From Halalkalicoccus jeotgali B3 (GTDB lineage: Archaea > Halobacteriota > Halobacteria > Halobacteriales > Halalkalicoccaceae): DNA of 64,000 nucleotides. Every line of letters starts with the position of its first letter. Within the stretch, counting starts at the first letter, position 1. The DNA lies in NCBI RefSeq assembly GCF_000196895.1, contig NC_014297.1:496001-560000 (forward strand). Reading direction: 5' to 3'. The notes beneath the pieces were generated by a model that made no database searches, was not told the origin of the DNA, and saw nothing but the letters and a program-made list of their open reading frames with translations. The position numbers and the translations under genes are program-made. Of the stretch, positions 4,291-41,144 are shown one piece after another.

Positions 4291-4945
4291 AACAAAAGAT
4301 AGATATTTTATGCTAATAGTCCTTTTGGCTGATAAGTACGTATTAATTACTATTGGTGGGTGACTAAAGCTGTTATCGATAGCATATGCCACTTCCCTCT
4401 ATAGGAGGCTATACGACTTCGTATCAAATAGCAGATTGATTTCGCTGGCAACAATAGCTGGACTATTCTGCTGGATTACTTGGCGCACCGATGTAGAACT
4501 AGATGCCGTAATGGCCATTCTCTCCTGCCAGATACTAGTGAAGGTCTCTTGATCGGGGAGGAAGGTCTCATCATCGTGTCCTCATGGTCGTCAGCGACAA
4601 CTGTGACGACGAGAGTATCATCCTTAGTGTTCCAAGATAAGGGTCAAAATAGAAGGCGAGTAAGGGTGGAAGCCTGTCTGTGATAGAACACGATTCTTCA
4701 TAGATAGTGGAAGTTACATCATATATAATATGTACTGATATGTCACTATCAATTGCGCTGATTCAGGACGGATTGCGGGCCAATTATTGGCTGTTAGAAG
4801 ACATATATGGTATTCAACAATACATCTCAGCATGTGTATAATCCAAAACGTCTCCAAATATTTCAGTGAAATCAACTTACCAATCAGATATTACTATTAT
4901 GTCTCTCGTAAGATGAATGAAGTGCTCCGTAAGAAGAGCATCGCT
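4291..4945. other. 655-nt gap without a convincing gene
   Basis: A/T-rich sequence holding the back-to-back promoters of the lipoprotein (minus) and the repeat protein (plus). Short open frames here lack motifs, and their composition does not look coding. I see no RNA gene or repeat. Confidence 0.5.
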
Positions 4946-6070
4946 ATGAGCCAAGACGATTCACCGCACGACCGAACGCGTCGCACAGTATTGAAAACGA
5001 CCGGAATGGCAACGATCGGTTTAGTTGGATTCTCCGGTGTTGGAGCAGCCCACGATGATAAGAAAGACGAGGACGACGAATCATACTTCCAGGGCTTTCG
5101 CCACGGATACTACAGTCAGAAGAAGGACGACGAAAAAGTTCACAAGGACGGGTATCGAGACGGGAAGAAGCAGTGTCGCAAATACAAAGGCAAAGATGGG
5201 TACTTTGCAGGAGTCTACGACAGCTATCATGGGAAAGGCAAACGCAAGCACCATGATGATGGATACCACGATGGCTATCGCTACGGGAAGAAGAAAGGTC
5301 ACGAATATGATGGAGAAAACAACAAGCAGTCGTATTTCCTAAGCTTTATTTACGGCTATTACAGCGAGAAGAAGAAGGAGTGGGGCGAGGATAACGAAAG
5401 CTATCAGAAGGGCTATGACGACGGTGTGAACAAGTGCCAGCGGTACGACGGGGAAGACGAGTACTTCCGCGGCTTCCACCACGGCTATCACCACGAGAGC
5501 AAAGAGACCTCAAAGGACGAGGAGGGATACGACGACGGGAAGAAAAAGCGTCACCGTCGCGGCGATAGGGACAAGAAGGACCATAAGCACGATTACGACA
5601 AGAAGGACGACGGTCACGACAACAAAGATAAAAAAGACAACGAAAAAGATCACAAAGACGGTAAGAAGGACGGTCATAAACGCGACGGAAAAGACAAAAA
5701 AGACGACCATCACGACAAAGACAAAAAAGATCACAAACACGGTCACGACGATAAGGACAATAAGAAAGACGACGACCATCACGACCACGACAAGGACAAA
5801 AAGGACGACCACCACGACGACAAAGACAAGAAGAAGGGCTACGACGACGGCTACCACCACGGGGAGAAGAAGAGTCCTAAATCTAAGGACGATTACGACG
5901 ACGAGGACAAGAAGGACGACCACCACGACGACAAAGACAAGGACAAGAAAGACGACGACCACCACGACGACAAAGACAAGGACAAGAAAGACGACGACCA
6001 CCACCACGATCACGACGATAAGGACCGTAAGAAAGACGACGACCATCACGACCACGACAAGGAAAAATAA
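4946..6070 (+). CDS. Tat-exported His/Asp/Lys-rich repeat protein
   Basis: 374 residues from the ATG at 4946. Upstream in-frame ATGs exist, but this one places the twin-arginine motif (TRRTVLK) at about residue 12, before a hydrophobic core ending in VGAAH. Residues about 40-200 hold three to four imperfect repeats of some 45 residues built on 'YFxGFxHGYYS' and 'GYDDGKK'. From about 200 to the end the protein is almost only D, K and H in blocks such as DKKDDHHD. Such composition suggests binding of divalent metal or polyelectrolyte at the cell surface, but that is inference. I recognise no family. It lies between two paralogous Tat lipoproteins and upstream of another Tat protein with a shorter HDK-rich stretch. 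Confidence 0.82.
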   Translation: MSQDDSPHDRTRRTVLKTTGMATIGLVGFSGVGAAHDDKKDEDDESYFQGFRHGYYSQKKDDEKVHKDGYRDGKKQCRKYKGKDGYFAGVYDSYHGKGKRKHHDDGYHDGYRYGKKKGHEYDGENNKQSYFLSFIYGYYSEKKKEWGEDNESYQKGYDDGVNKCQRYDGEDEYFRGFHHGYHHESKETSKDEEGYDDGKKKRHRRGDRDKKDHKHDYDKKDDGHDNKDKKDNEKDHKDGKKDGHKRDGKDKKDDHHDKDKKDHKHGHDDKDNKKDDDHHDHDKDKKDDHHDDKDKKKGYDDGYHHGEKKSPKSKDDYDDEDKKDDHHDDKDKDKKDDDHHDDKDKDKKDDDHHHDHDDKDRKKDDDHHDHDKEK

Positions 6071-23018: not shown

Positions 23019-23193
23019 CGCTTTCGTCGAAAGTAGCGAGGAGAGAGGTAGATTCTGCCTCGTATCCCGTATGCGAGCGGGGCGAGGCGATACACCCACC
23101 GCTCATCGACCGTTTAGTACAGCCAGCGGTACAAGCGAAGGAGCGGACGAGTGCACGGGCGGTGGGACCACGGGCTGAAACGGGGCCATTCTA
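23019..23193. ncRNA. Conserved non-coding block downstream of cassette A
   Basis: This block aligns with 39354-39530 although both are non-coding. Shared landmarks in order are the palindrome CTTTCGTCGAAAGTAG (from about 23021), ATACACCCACCGCT (from 23090), CGACCGTTTA (from 23107), GGGCGGTGG (from about 23157) and ACGGGCTGAAA (from about 23170). CCCACCGC and GCGGTGGG, about 55 nt apart, can pair. It lies just after the last gene of the operon, so it may be a structured 3' UTR or a separate small RNA on either strand. Confidence 0.45.
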
Positions 23194-23811
23194 GCAGCCC
23201 TCGGTTAGGTGGTCGCTACTTTCGGCGACAGCGTTCTCCTCGCTCGCTTCCTCGCCGGTGTCGGCCTCGTAGAGTTCCCAAAGCGCCTCGGGGATCGTCT
23301 CCTTCGTGGCGACCAGTCGTTTGTTCGCGCCTTCTTTGGTGCCGCTGCCCGTCTGGAGTTCGAAGGCGTCCCACTCGGTGGCAAGGTCTGTGAAGGCGTC
23401 GCCGACAGTTTTGTGAGTGAACTCAATGCCAAGCCCGTGGCCCATCGTGATTACCGTGGGAACGTCGACGCTCCCGCCCTCGCCGATCGGATTCGTCTTC
23501 TGAGTGATTTGCCGGAGGATCTCATTGCGCGCGAGGCGCTTGGCGCGCTCTTTTTTGGTTCCCGTCCGCTGGGTACGCTGAGCGCGCAGCTGGGCCTGGA
23601 GGTGCTGGATCTCGGTTTCGAGGGTATCGATGCGCGTGATGATCGCATCGACTTTCCCGATCGGGTCGGTGTCGGTCGAGGTATCGCTCAGGCCGTGGAG
23701 TAATCGGCGGATGGCGGCCATCTCGAGAGAATCCTGTCTGAGCATCCCGCGTTCGAGTCGGTCGAGGCGGGTTTCGATCGGTTCCTCGGGAGTGTCCTCA
23801 GAGCGTGACAT
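23191..23811 (-). CDS. Cassette A gene 3: 206-aa coiled-coil protein of unknown function
   Basis: 206 residues from the ATG at 23811. Residues about 10-110 are heptad-rich and highly charged (LDRLERG, ITRIDTLETEIQHLQAQLRAQ), indicating a coiled coil, followed by a basic stretch KKERAKRLARNEILRQI. The C-terminal part (about 110-190) is a distinct domain containing NPIGEGGSVDVP and MGHGLGIEFTHKTVGDAF, nearly identical in the second copy. I recognise no family. It overlaps the upstream gene by 14 nt, so the three genes are probably translated together. The basic segment suggests nucleic-acid contact, which is inference. Confidence 0.8.
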   Translation of the reverse strand: MSRSEDTPEEPIETRLDRLERGMLRQDSLEMAAIRRLLHGLSDTSTDTDPIGKVDAIITRIDTLETEIQHLQAQLRAQRTQRTGTKKERAKRLARNEILRQITQKTNPIGEGGSVDVPTVITMGHGLGIEFTHKTVGDAFTDLATEWDAFELQTGSGTKEGANKRLVATKETIPEALWELYEADTGEEASEENAVAESSDHLTEGC

Positions 23812-24130
23812 GGCCTTCCTCCGGTTCGCTCCTGATGATTCGTTCGATGCCCAGCAGCGTGAGGGTGGTCCGTTGGGTTGTAGCATCCATCGTGACGCCG
23901 AGGTGGCCCTCAGCCAGTAGTTCGGTTGCCCCGAGTGTCGGATCGGTGATGGTCGACTGACAATCCCGACAGTAAATGCACGGGATCGACCACTCCTCGT
24001 CGCCGGCATACCGGACCGCGTAGGCGCTGACGGGGTCGCCCTCGCCAAGGGTAGTCTTGCAGTACTGACAGCGGGTTTCTATGAGCTGGTAGCCGGTGAG
24101 GAACTGTTCCGCGGGCGCGGTGATCAGCAT
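23798..24130 (-). CDS. Cassette A gene 2: 110-aa zinc-binding-like protein
   Basis: 110 residues. RCQYCKTTLGEGDPV near residue 20 and CIYCRDC near residue 51 give five cysteines as two CxxC pairs plus one, the arrangement of a treble-clef or zinc-ribbon fold, with the AYAVRYAGDEEW strand between them. The C-terminal half (TLGATELL..., LTLLGIERI) is alpha/beta. It overlaps both neighbours (7 nt upstream, 14 nt downstream), and the same overlaps recur in cassette B. Function is unknown. Confidence 0.78.
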   Translation of the reverse strand: MLITAPAEQFLTGYQLIETRCQYCKTTLGEGDPVSAYAVRYAGDEEWSIPCIYCRDCQSTITDPTLGATELLAEGHLGVTMDATTQRTTLTLLGIERIIRSEPEEGHVTL

Positions 24131-24330
24131 TTCTGAACCTCGCAGTCGGCGGTGTGGAACGTAGGTCGGTAGAGGTCCTGTTCGTTGATGGACTCTCGGC
24201 TGCAGGACCGACAGCGCCAGTAGGTGGTAGCGTTCGGGACTGACGGTGGTTCCCTGTGTGGGCCACTGAAATACTGTGTCAGGGTCTGTGAGGCGATACT
24301 GTTTTCTGGCGGTGAGTGGCTAGTATTCAT
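24124..24330 (-). CDS. Cassette A gene 1: 68-aa Cys-rich protein
   Basis: 68 residues from the ATG at 24330, preceded by AAGGGAG, a ribosome-binding site on the leader. The N-terminal 35 residues look disordered. Then WRCRSCSRES and the tail FHTADCEVQKC supply C-x2-C and H-x3-DC-x4-C, enough for one zinc site. It starts the three-gene unit directly after the three-way-junction leader. Copy B differs most in the N-terminal segment. Function is unknown. Confidence 0.75.
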   Translation of the reverse strand: MNTSHSPPENSIASQTLTQYFSGPHREPPSVPNATTYWRCRSCSRESINEQDLYRPTFHTADCEVQKC

Positions 24331-24346
24331 TGCTTCTCCCTTGCTG

Positions 24347-24408
24347 AGAAGCGCGGTCCGGTGTACCAGCACCGGGCCAGATCGATTCTGTGCTAGACCC
24401 GCGCTTCT
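24347..24408 (-). ncRNA. Three-way-junction leader element of cassette A
   Basis: The 62-nt element lies just before the cassette's first gene. The outer stem AGAAGCGCGG (24347-24356) pairs with CCGCGCTTCT (24399-24408), 10 perfect pairs. Inside are hairpin 1 (CCGGTG 24358-24363 with CACCGG 24370-24375, 6-nt loop) and a weaker hairpin 2 (CAGA 24378-24381 with TCTG 24387-24390). Cassette B has the same three-way layout at the same place with compensated hairpin-1 pairs. A TATA box 23 nt further upstream would start the transcript about at the outer stem. A role as an RNA regulator, or a DNA cruciform bound by the cassette regulator, is inference. Confidence 0.6.
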
Positions 24409-24430
24409 GGTTAGCTAGATGATTACCAGT

Positions 24431-24440
24431 CTATTATATC
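24431..24440 (-). promoter_or_regulatory. TATA box of the cassette A operon
   Basis: On the minus strand GATATAATAG lies about 25-30 nt before the outer arm of the leader element, a good archaeal TATA position for a transcript beginning at that arm. Confidence 0.45.
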
Positions 24441-24535
24441 TTGTGCAATTTGCCCATCCTATGAGACAGTATTGGAAGCCAATTCTTATTGCGTGTAGAC
24501 AACAACTATACTATATGCAACGACACGCAGAGACA

Positions 24536-24778
24536 ATGGATGCCGACGATCTTACTAAGACAGATCGGGCTATCTTAGACGTGCTAAAACGAGGCCGAGG
24601 AGGCGATGAACCCTGGGGAATCTGTACGAAGGGTTACTTAGTAGATGAGACCGGATTCTCACGCAATAGTATCTATAATCGCCTAGAAGTTTTGGAGGCA
24701 CACGAGCATATCAAATTAATTCATGGTCCAACTCGCTTGTTTGCATTTGTAGATGACCCTCGGGATGTTGATCAGTGA
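24536..24778 (+). CDS. Cassette A regulator: PhiH1-repressor-like winged-helix protein
   Basis: 80 residues from the ATG at 24536. Longer in-frame starts exist, but this one matches the N-terminus of the copy B regulator. TDRAILDVLKRG, the recognition-type helix GFSRNSIYNRLEVLEAH and the wing ending AFVDDPRD are those of haloarchaeal winged-helix proteins related to the phage PhiH1 repressor. It is divergent from the three-gene unit, with the leader element between them, so it is the likely regulator of the cassette and of itself. Sequence similarity to the copy B regulator is much lower than for the operon proteins. Confidence 0.78.
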   Translation: MDADDLTKTDRAILDVLKRGRGGDEPWGICTKGYLVDETGFSRNSIYNRLEVLEAHEHIKLIHGPTRLFAFVDDPRDVDQ

Positions 24779-29836: not shown

Positions 29837-31051
29837 ATGAACAAGTACGATGACCTGTTCGACGAGACGACGCCTGATGATAGTGTCTTTGCCGATAAGG
29901 GCGCACTTGATCCCTTAACTGAGCCCAAGGAGACCATTGCTCGCGATGAGCAAGAGCACGAACTCGCGACAATTCTCAACGGTATCCACGAAGGCTATCT
30001 CCCACCGACCGTTTCGATCCACGGGCCACCCGGGACGGGAAAGACCATGACCACACGACGGGTCACCCAGGAGTTCGCCACACGAACTGAGGAGCTCGCC
30101 GTCGAGTACGTAAATCTCAAGGACTGTCGAACGGTCTTCAGTGCGGCCAACGAGATTCATCTTGCACTCACTGACGAAAAACGTGGTGCCTACGAAGGGC
30201 TTGACGGGGTCTTCGAAGGAATTTGGGAGGCACTCACTACGTATCCGGAATGGACGGTCCTCATTCTCGATGAAATCGATCACGTTCAGCACGATACGAA
30301 CTATGATCCCAACGAGTTCTTCTATCGGCTCCTGCGTGGAGAGGGTAAGCTCGCCCGCGATGTTCAGCTCTCATGTTGGCTGCTTAGCAACGAGTTGTTG
30401 ACAGTCGACCTCCGGCTCGACAGCCGTGTACAGAGTGTCATGGGGGACAGGGAGCTGTTCTTCCCACCATACGGGCACGCAAAGCTCGAGGCTATCTTGA
30501 AGCCACGTGTCGAGCAGGCGTTTCGCGATGGGACTCTGTCCGACGATACATTCGACCATGGTATCACCAAGGCGGCGTACCGATGGGGCGACGCACGGCG
30601 GGCGCTTCGGCTCTTCCGACAGGCAGGTGAGACGGCGAATGAACGCGATCTCGAGCAGGTGACTACGGACTGCCTCGATACCAACTTCGACGCAACTGAG
30701 CGGGAGGCGACGATCGAGAAGCTGCTGTCGCTTCCCCCAAACCATTTCATGGTGCTTATTGGGGTCGCCCAATGGGAGAACACGCGTACTGGAGAAATCA
30801 TTCAACCCGTCACTACCGCTCAAATCCAGGAAAGTGACGAACTTACTGAAATTGGGCTCGGAAACCGAGCGGTTCGTAACCTCATTATGGAACTCGAGAC
30901 CATGGGATTAGTCGAAACGTGGATCGAGTCGAAGGGGAATGAGGGCCGCGTGAAACAGGTCGAAACCACCTTCGATCCACAGTGGGTACATCAGGCAGTA
31001 AAATCCTATATCAACGAATCGGATGTTCGGTCGCGTTCAGCCGAGGAGTAA
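29837..31051 (+). CDS. orc1/cdc6: Orc1/Cdc6 replication initiator
   Basis: 404 residues. Walker A HGPPGTGKT at 62-70 and Walker B VLILDEIDH at 141-149 define the AAA+ ATPase. A sensor-2-type segment (ITKAAYRWGDARRAL) is at about 240-255, and the last about 100 residues form the winged-helix DNA-binding domain. It binds origin recognition boxes and loads the MCM helicase. Haloarchaea carry many orc paralogues, often one per replicon or integrated element, so this gene may mark an origin or a past plasmid integration. It is monocistronic. Confidence 0.95.
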   Translation: MNKYDDLFDETTPDDSVFADKGALDPLTEPKETIARDEQEHELATILNGIHEGYLPPTVSIHGPPGTGKTMTTRRVTQEFATRTEELAVEYVNLKDCRTVFSAANEIHLALTDEKRGAYEGLDGVFEGIWEALTTYPEWTVLILDEIDHVQHDTNYDPNEFFYRLLRGEGKLARDVQLSCWLLSNELLTVDLRLDSRVQSVMGDRELFFPPYGHAKLEAILKPRVEQAFRDGTLSDDTFDHGITKAAYRWGDARRALRLFRQAGETANERDLEQVTTDCLDTNFDATEREATIEKLLSLPPNHFMVLIGVAQWENTRTGEIIQPVTTAQIQESDELTEIGLGNRAVRNLIMELETMGLVETWIESKGNEGRVKQVETTFDPQWVHQAVKSYINESDVRSRSAEE

Positions 31052-39353: not shown

Positions 39354-39530
39354 GGACTACTTTCGTCGAAAGTAGTGAAAAAGAGGCCACGTCCACCTCT
39401 TGGCCTTCATGCGAAGCCCTGCGAGGTAATACACCCACCGCTATTCGACCGTTTATTCTAGACCACAGTACAAGACAAATAGCTATCTAGTACAAGGGCG
39501 GTGGAACAACGGGCTGAAAAACATCCATCT
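39354..39530. ncRNA. Conserved non-coding block downstream of cassette B
   Basis: The palindrome CTACTTTCGTCGAAAGTAG (39357-39375) is perfect around its central T, and the block then repeats the landmarks of the cassette A block in the same order: ATACACCCACCGCT (from 39429), CGACCGTTTA (from 39446), GGGCGGTGG (from about 39496) and ACGGGCTGAAA (from 39509). CCACCGC and GCGGTGG can pair. Sequence between the landmarks has diverged. The recurrence suggests a selected structure rather than drift. Confidence 0.45.
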
Positions 39531-40150
39531 CAGCGCACCTCGATCGCGTGCTCGCTACTTTCAACGACAGTGTCTTCTCCAGTTGCTTTCTCGCCGGTCT
39601 CGGCTCGGTAGACGTCCCAGAGTGCATCGGAAATCGCATCAGCAGTGGCAACCAATCGTTTGTTCGCACCTTCCTTCGTGCCACTCCCATCTTGGAGTTC
39701 GAAGGCGTCCCATTCGGTCGCGAGTGCCTGAAACGCGTCGCCGACCGTCTTGTGGGTAAAGTCGATTCCGAGTCCATGGCCCATCGTGATCATAGTGGGC
39801 ACGTCGACAGCACCACCCTCGCCGATCGGGTTCGTGGTCTGTTCGATCTGACGCAGTATTTCGGTACGCGCGAGGCGTTTGGCGCGCTCTTTCTTGGAAC
39901 CCTTTTGCTGGGTGCGCTGGGCACGCAGTTGGGCCCGGAGATGCTGAATCTCGGTTTCGAGCTCCTCAATTCGGTCAACGATTGCATCGACTTTCGTGAT
40001 AGGATCGGACTCAGTGGAGATATTACTCAACCCATGAAGGAGCCGGCGGATCGCGGCCATTTCAAGGGAGTCCGTCCTAAGCATCTCACGCTCGAGCCGT
40101 TCGAGACGGGCGTCGATGGGTTCGTCGGCCGACTCCTTAGAGCGTGGCAT
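39530..40150 (-). CDS. Cassette B gene 3: 206-aa coiled-coil protein of unknown function
   Basis: 206 residues, the same length as the cassette A protein and roughly 70% identical by eye. The charged coiled coil, the basic KKERAKRLART segment and the NPIGEGGAVDVP and MGHGLGIDFTHKTVGDAF core are all kept. Changes are mostly conservative and lie outside the core, as in two copies under selection. Its start overlaps the upstream gene by 14 nt, as in cassette A. Confidence 0.8.
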   Translation of the reverse strand: MPRSKESADEPIDARLERLEREMLRTDSLEMAAIRRLLHGLSNISTESDPITKVDAIVDRIEELETEIQHLRAQLRAQRTQQKGSKKERAKRLARTEILRQIEQTTNPIGEGGAVDVPTMITMGHGLGIDFTHKTVGDAFQALATEWDAFELQDGSGTKEGANKRLVATADAISDALWDVYRAETGEKATGEDTVVESSEHAIEVR

Positions 40151-40469
40151 AACCTTCCCCCGAGGCGCTCTTCGTAATTCGTTCAATACCGAGCAGTGTG
40201 AGAGAAGATTGCTGGGTCGCAGTGTCCATCAAACAGCCGAGTCGTCCCGTGACTAGTAGTTCAGTCGCTCCGAGCGTCGGCTCAGTAATGGTTGATAGAC
40301 AATCCCGACAGTAGAGGCGCGGGACGACCCACTCGTCATCGCCGGCATACCGGACTGCGTAGGCAGTGACTCGGTCGCCCTCGCGAAGCGTACTTTTACA
40401 GTACTGACAGCGCGTTTCAACGGTCGGGAAATCAGCGAAGAGCTGTTCAGCGGGTGCATTGATCAGCAT
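40137..40469 (-). CDS. Cassette B gene 2: 110-aa zinc-binding-like protein
   Basis: 110 residues from the ATG at 40469. RCQYCKSTLREGDRV and RLYCRDC align with the cassette A protein; one cysteine of the second cluster (CIYC in A) is RLYC here, so four cysteines remain. The rest (AYAVRYAGDDEW, TLGATELL, LTLLGIERI) is clearly homologous. Upstream and downstream overlaps are 7 and 14 nt, the same as in A. The loss of the extra cysteine indicates that the remaining four are the zinc ligands. Confidence 0.78.
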   Translation of the reverse strand: MLINAPAEQLFADFPTVETRCQYCKSTLREGDRVTAYAVRYAGDDEWVVPRLYCRDCLSTITEPTLGATELLVTGRLGCLMDTATQQSSLTLLGIERITKSASGEGYATL

Positions 40470-40675
40470 TCCTGGCACACCTCACAGTCAGGCGCGTGGA
40501 ATTCACTCCGGTAGAGATCCTGCTCGTAGATGGATTCACGAGAACACGATTGACAGCGCCAGTAGGTAGTCGCGTTCGAAATCGTTGGGGGTTCGTAGTG
40601 CGGACCGCTGATATACTGATTGGAGCTGGTTGGTGAGCCGATACTGTTTTCTGATGGTGAGTAGCTAGTGTTCAT
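40463..40675 (-). CDS. Cassette B gene 1: 70-aa Cys-rich protein
   Basis: 70 residues from the ATG at 40675. AGAGGAG about 8 nt before the start is a ribosome-binding site. WRCQSCSRES and FHAPDCEVCQEC preserve the cysteines of the cassette A homologue with one extra Cys. The start of the tail differs slightly (SSNQYISGPH). First gene of the three-gene unit, right after the leader element. Confidence 0.75.
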   Translation of the reverse strand: MNTSYSPSENSIGSPTSSNQYISGPHYEPPTISNATTYWRCQSCSRESIYEQDLYRSEFHAPDCEVCQEC

Positions 40676-40688
40676 TGCTTCTCCTCTA

Positions 40689-40749
40689 GAGAAGCGCGGT
40701 CGCGTGTCCAAGCACGCGGCCACAGGCCTTCTGTGGCGCTTCACGCTTC
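40689..40749 (-). ncRNA. Three-way-junction leader element of cassette B
   Basis: 61 nt upstream of the first gene. Outer stem AGAAGCG (40689-40695) with CGCTTCT (40743-40749); hairpin 1 CGCGTG (40700-40705) with CACGCG (40712-40717), loop 6 nt; hairpin 2 CCACAG (40719-40724) with CTGTGG (40730-40735), loop 5 nt. Compared with cassette A, hairpin 1 pairs 2 and 3 have swapped bases on both sides and kept pairing. GAAGCGC/GCGCTTC offers an alternative outer pairing. The 5' arm AGAAGCGCGGTC is identical in both copies. Confidence 0.6.
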
Positions 40750-40898
40750 TACCATCGGTTATACAGTGCTACTACTTCAATCTATTGCTGTTGTAAACTC
40801 TTATAGTCAGCAAACATTAGAAGCATACAAAGTAATAAGACTGCGAATCTGAGCACGAATAGTTACTATTGTGAATACTGATACTCAAGATAGAAAAG

Positions 40899-41144
40899 AT
40901 GGGCCTGTCCCCTACTGACCTCAACGATCTTGATAACGAAATATTAGATTGCCTTCAAGAGGGACGAGCGACGCCAACATTAATCAAACGCCTCTTAGAA
41001 CGAAAAGGCACCCGTGAAACAGTGAGCCGGCAATACGTAAACCAACGTCTTAAGCGGCTTACCGAGCACGGTCACATAGATAATATTCTTGACACGGGTG
41101 TCTATGAGCTAATAAATGATCCTCGTAATAGCGAAAATAATTAA
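40899..41144 (+). CDS. Cassette B regulator: PhiH1-repressor-like winged-helix protein
   Basis: 81 residues. LDNEILDCLQEG, then a recognition-type helix TVSRQYVNQRLKRLTEHG, and the ending YELINDPRN are typical of PhiH1-repressor-like proteins. It occupies the same divergent position relative to the three-gene unit as the cassette A regulator, but the two regulators are poorly similar outside the fold. That contrast may mean the two cassettes respond to different signals or avoid cross-talk. Confidence 0.76.
   Translation: MGLSPTDLNDLDNEILDCLQEGRATPTLIKRLLERKGTRETVSRQYVNQRLKRLTEHGHIDNILDTGVYELINDPRNSENN

Follow-up and report, generated by a model that had tools for sequence, protein, structure and literature searches.

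The window analyzed here, which denotes the whole stretch of 64,000 nucleotides from Halalkalicoccus jeotgali B3, contains two cassettes (copies A and B) that have the same gene order, the same gene overlaps, and a divergent regulator each, exactly as a first-pass annotation had claimed and at matching coordinates. The first open reading frame (ORF1) behind a structured leader encodes a C2HC-type zinc-finger protein, designated p68 in copy A (24124..24330, minus strand) and p70 in copy B (40463..40675, minus strand). This gene is followed by that for p110, a CxxC...CxxC zinc-ribbon protein with relatives downstream of other leaders (23798..24130 in copy A and 40137..40469 in copy B, both minus strand), and by that for p206, which AlphaFold2 predicts to combine a coiled coil with a winged helix (23191..23811 and 39530..40150, both minus strand). 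The overlaps of 7 and 14 nt proved real; across the 10 cassette copies described below, the 14-nt overlap is present in all 10 and the 7-nt overlap in 8, with 1 nt in the other 2. Copies A and B are 71% identical in p68, 66% in p110, and 74% in p206.

The leader RNA occupies 24327..24408 in copy A and 40672..40750 in copy B (both minus strand), with covariance model scores of 83.5 and 81.8 bits, respectively. In copy A, it comprises a predicted three-way junction of helices P1, P2, and P3 together with a hairpin, P4, that ends 1 nt short of the p68 start codon. The divergent winged-helix regulators lie on the plus strand: regulator A, which is PhiH1-repressor-like, at 24419..24778 and regulator B at 40899..41144. 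For regulator A, position 24515 is a more probable start than 24419, because the orthologue in genome G002 begins there and the TATA box of the cassette falls within the opening portion of the long ORF. In copy A, the 3' element (23019..23233, minus strand) contains inverted sites at 23213-23233, within the p206 ORF, and 23019-23039, with inner pairs CCACCGC/GCGGTGG and GCCTCG/CGAGGC; that of copy B (39359..39571, minus strand) contains inverted sites at 39551-39571 and 39359-39379. A block of ~200 nt 3' of p206 is conserved, as is the leader, both of which had been anticipated.

The window's own genome contains exactly two cassettes. The cassette was recovered in 10 copies from 6 Halalkalicoccus genomes, including Halalkalicoccus paucihalophilus DSM 24557, and in 0 from the 189 other genomes of the sample; among genomes searched, the full cassette is found in Halalkalicoccus only, and its gene order is invariant across all 10 copies. 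Nei-Gojobori comparison of copies A and B yielded dN/dS ratios of 0.15 for p68, 0.25 for p110, and 0.13 for p206, with dS of about 0.8–1.4. As judged from these substitution rates, the cassette is old and under purifying selection. The earlier proposal of a regulated module with a recurring gene order, a structured leader, and selection on the operon is borne out by the 10 copies, 6 genomes, and ratios of 0.13–0.25; we encountered neither a known family with an assigned function nor a duplication limited to one genome with dN/dS near 1, the two outcomes named as contrary to it. However, the module is not self-contained as had been proposed, in that the leader, the pair p68/p110, and members of the p206 family can each be found elsewhere without the other two. 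The cassette consists of three parts with separate distributions, namely the leader, p68 plus p110, and p206. The leader RNA, treated as background in the first-pass annotation, is the most notable of these.

In a tree of the cassettes, the three copies of G003 cluster by genome, as do the two copies of G001, which indicates lineage duplications or gene conversion. Cassettes of multi-copy genomes all lie within one chromosomal region, and the genes that flank them vary. Similarity to other genomes mostly stops sharply on both sides of the cassette. The left flank of the A locus is also found in G004, and its right flank is partly shared with G002. In G004 (L020/L021), the A-type left flank is nevertheless accompanied by a B-type regulator, which suggests that regulators have been exchanged between cassettes. 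An orc1/cdc6 gene (29837..31051, plus strand) lies in the same island as the two cassettes; its relatives adjoin cassettes in G003 and G006, and fragments are present in G002 and G003. An orc1/cdc6 gene (29837-31051 in the window) and orc fragments thus recur around cassettes (loci L011-L021), and the island, which is rearranged, also contains sugar/polysaccharide-type genes. An apparent insertion into orc1/cdc6 in G002 did not hold up: at the protein level the two fragments cover a common stretch, and their sequences differ, which indicates that they come from different orc genes. Elsewhere in the window, positions 5001-6000 display a very strong AT skew (0.549) over gene 4787-6070.

Both regulators match halovirus regulator families, which upholds their earlier description as PhiH1-repressor-like winged-helix (wHTH) proteins. 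Regulator B matches PHROG 38164 at 9e-22 and PHROG 2440 (transcriptional regulator) at 2e-8; the values for regulator A are 2.5e-5 and 2e-4. Neither matched a family above the cut-off in Pfam or NCBIfam. With a profile built from five Halalkalicoccus regulators, a divergent winged-helix gene was detected in nine cassettes and at 14 or more of 40 other leader loci; in most cases, its start lies about 130 bp upstream of the leader. The coupling of regulator to leader described in the window hence recurs far beyond Halalkalicoccus. On Haloterrigena turkmenica pHTUR03, for example, a divergent regulator, leader (E 9e-9), ORF1, and p110-like gene are found together. The P3 dyad is of the CGCGTG or the CCGGTG type, and across the nine regulator-bearing cassettes this type tracks that of the regulator; P3 may therefore double as an operator.

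Comparison shows the leader to be a conserved cis-regulatory RNA of ~80 nt that forms a three-way junction and ends at the start codon. RNAalifold analysis of the 10 cassette leaders, aligned without a guide structure, revealed that P1 closes hairpins P2 and P3, all three helices being nested. In these leaders, 90.7% of cells are paired, compared with 81% in shuffled alignments and 28–43% in slid structures, and the observed covariation was matched by 0 of 500 shuffles. When 59 related genomes were searched with a covariance model (R1) built from the 10 leaders, 23 proved to contain this RNA, with no more than 6 per genome. After 40 further leader loci were fetched, the comparison was made on 51 distinct leaders. 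Compensatory changes, found in 18 of 19 pairs (179 cells), support the secondary structure, as expected of a cis-regulatory RNA; covariation reached 0.550, compared with 0.169 after shuffling (0 of 500 shuffles reached the observed value) and at most 0.083 for slid structures.

Since selection of leaders by fit to a covariance model favors pairing, and hence inflates paired percentages, we sought independent evidence in the positions of the ATG and promoter. The ATG lies at or adjoins the end of the model in 50 of the 51 distinct leaders, and an A-rich stretch with a TTTA peak is located 27–35 nt upstream, which is consistent with an archaeal-type promoter and with a transcript that would start at P1. 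The leader is placed as a 5' UTR, behind a promoter and directly before the start codon. Of 50 leaders, only 26 have a Shine-Dalgarno-like 4-mer close to the start; haloarchaea have no strict requirement for one. Inside ORF1, a GAAAACAGTATCG-like motif at +25 to +38 is common to unrelated proteins (leader set A11) and in L138 falls in a different reading frame, which suggests that the element may extend into the coding region.

A second covariance model (R2), built on 53 matches, identified the leader in 218 of 391 Halobacteria genomes and 70 of 86 genera (E-values of both models are rough). A phylum-wide sample of 148 genomes contained 12 with a match, all of the same order, and no leader was found outside the class Halobacteria among the listed genomes. 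No Rfam 15 family matched the leader above its gathering threshold: there was no match in the window and, in ten other leader loci, only a chance mir-10 match away from the leader (E up to 1). An exact leader pattern was not found in viral contigs, and the open-access literature yielded no account of this RNA.

The 3' strand of P1 (consensus GCTTC) can also pair with bases just before the ATG to form P4, which ends 0–1 nt before the ATG in most leaders. The mean P4 score was 6.67, compared with a maximum of 5.87 in 300 strand swaps, and compensated variants include GGTTCT/AGAACC, GGGTTT/GAACCC, and GCTCTCG/CGAGAGC; within the ten cassettes alone, P4 hardly varies and gives no evidence. Folds in which P1 or P4 was forced differ by a median of -0.5 kcal/mol, as computed at 37 °C with a folding model that is not intended for high salt. 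The shared strand and near-equal energies suggest that P1 and P4 may constitute a bistable translational switch.

p68 and p110 are small zinc proteins that belong to a wider set of leader clients. Together with p206, they gave nothing above the cut-off in Pfam, PHROGs, NCBIfam, PADLOC, or the PDB. A second type of Halalkalicoccus operon behind the leader encodes a p68-like protein and a p110-like protein of about 250 amino acids, and clients elsewhere include SWIM zinc-finger proteins as well as small zinc proteins followed by p110-like proteins. No ribosomal-protein gene lies downstream of the leader among the clients read. In the window's own genome, a leader directly precedes a phage-integrase gene (L118; G000:C1 1001548), and in L127 the leader is followed by a small ORF and then an IS200-type Y1 transposase gene. 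Among six plasmid loci chosen for their client proteins, pHTUR03 alone had a strong leader and one other had a weak one. The p110-like/SWIM genes of the remaining four lack a detectable leader, which indicates that clients also occur leaderless.

Distant relatives of p206, 24–28% identical, are present in other haloarchaea. AlphaFold2, using a 16-row alignment, predicted long helices followed by a winged helix with a pLDDT of about 88–93, and Foldseek searches with this model returned generic winged helices, none with E below 0.001. The last ~50 nt of the p206 gene pair with a site about 145–190 nt after the stop codon to form an inverted repeat (17–24 nt) that is present in the Halalkalicoccus copies and in distant relatives, even though the sequences differ. 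Pairing is complete in L031 (24/24), L073 (17/17), and L030 (10/10), and the repeat scores were reached by 0–8 of 300 shuffles. In L049, the best-scoring helix is a different one and the GTTCACCACA/TGTGGTGAAC pair is visible by eye. Looser coiled-coil/winged-helix relatives of the L056 type had no significant inverted repeat. We infer that p206 may be a DNA-binding maintenance protein that acts on its own 3' sites.

Searches with p206 found no match in viral contigs, phages, or plasmids. Distant p206 proteins used as queries against viral contigs gave two clear L056-type matches (L078 and L079); two weak matches (L076 and L077) were set aside, as the contigs look unrelated. L056-type genes lie directly before MCM in two viral contigs. 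Some p206 relatives are found in provirus-like or integrated elements, as read by eye from ORFs; L069 resembles a sphaerolipovirus-like provirus by eye, with only its AAA ATPase domain confirmed. Toxin-antitoxin-like pairs (PIN-type/AbrB-like by eye) directly follow the p206 3' element in L064, L068, and G003 copy 1 (L011 13536-14065).

We consider it probable that the cassette is a mobile-element-derived DNA-maintenance operon under double control, with a repressor acting on the promoter and an RNA switch acting on translation. The divergent winged-helix repressor would act on the shared promoter region. Judging from the TATA box, the transcript would begin at the 5' strand of P1 and open with the ~80-nt RNA. 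One fold, with the P1/P2/P3 junction, would keep the start region accessible; in the alternative fold, P4 would form between the 3' strand of P1 and the nucleotides immediately preceding the start codon and would hide that codon. The choice between P1 and P4 would switch p68 translation and, by way of the overlaps of 7 and 14 nt, that of p110 and p206, with the junction sensing a ligand or protein. p206, predicted to bind DNA, would act at the 3' inverted sites of its own gene, perhaps most plausibly as an origin or partition factor.

The association of P3 dyad type with regulator type in nine cassettes, together with the usual binding of dyads by wHTH regulators, could mean that the leader dyads are DNA operators and the RNA fold is a by-product. 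We regard this as improbable, because neither P1 nor P2 is a simple palindrome, the three helices form a nested, covarying set, the location of the TATA box implies a transcript that starts at P1, P4 directly adjoins the start codon, and a recognized divergent regulator is missing at many leaders. What an RNA leader would respond to admits two proposals. It may be an autoregulatory mRNA site for a protein of its own operon (p110 or p68) rather than for a small molecule, a proposal that gains from the commonness of protein-binding leaders, the several clients that are small zinc proteins, and the recurrence of p110-like proteins as second gene; unrelated clients (the integrase of L118, SWIM proteins, and the IS200-type transposase second in L127) do not fit a single operon-encoded binder, and we hold it only tentatively. 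It is similarly tempting to speculate, with no great confidence, that the leader is a natural ligand-sensing riboswitch class restricted to haloarchaea, by which mobile elements time small zinc-protein and DNA-maintenance genes.

Two further explanations concern the cassette as a unit and the role of p206. A small transposable unit ending in the leader and the 3' inverted site would account for the sharp loss of similarity at both edges and for 1–3 copies per genome amid varying flanking genes. No transposase was found among the cassette genes above the cut-off, including the Y1 transposase of IS200/IS605, and no target duplication or empty site was found; a transposon was rejected on the first two grounds. 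In addition, multiple copies of a genome lie in one region, the A locus is common to G000, G002, and G004 through one or other flank, and the copies are ancient, all of which makes such a unit very unlikely. It is possible, if doubtful, that p206 forms with its 3' element a module for partition (centromere) or transcription regulation instead of an origin: a coiled coil, a winged helix, and paired inverted sites would likewise be compatible with centromere-binding proteins, and toxin-antitoxin-like genes follow the three copies named above, but the looser relative directly before MCM and the cassettes that adjoin orc1/cdc6 weakly favor replication over partition.

The leader occurs in over half of the haloarchaeal genomes searched, covaries strongly, and has no counterpart in Rfam; it would represent a large new family and, if it controls genes, a new class of archaeal gene-control RNA. 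Haloarchaea amenable to genetics allow it to be tested, and it provides an entry point to the regulation of small genes by the mobile elements of haloarchaea. A 2021 paper counted one experimentally determined natural archaeal riboswitch, the fluoride riboswitch of Thermococcus (PMC8241225).

Several known systems resemble parts of the cassette. In SNJ2, the published layout places the Rep gene before a hairpin origin (PMC13107129). p206 is like RepSNJ2 and Rep-Arvir (PMC13107129) in that a viral DNA-binding protein gene has a conserved hairpin element downstream. However, RepSNJ2 contains a DUF7845 catalytic domain and tyrosine, whereas neither p206 nor its relatives matched Pfam DUF7845, and we rejected p206 as a replication initiator of the Rep-Arvir type. 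With translational riboswitches and ribosomal-protein leaders, the leader has in common its structured nature and 5' position, a junction that covaries, and a predicted alternative hairpin that covers the start region; it differs in having no Rfam match, in its small zinc-protein and mobile-element clients, in its confinement here to Halobacteria, and in being a candidate ligand sensor only. The published S15 leader of Halobacteria (PMC7247131), unlike this one, precedes rpsO. Finally, the cassette regulators resemble PhiH1-repressor-like haloarchaeal regulators in being small, divergent wHTH proteins of mobile-element context that match PHROG 2440/38164, and are distinguished from them by their coupling to a structured leader RNA and a zinc-protein operon.
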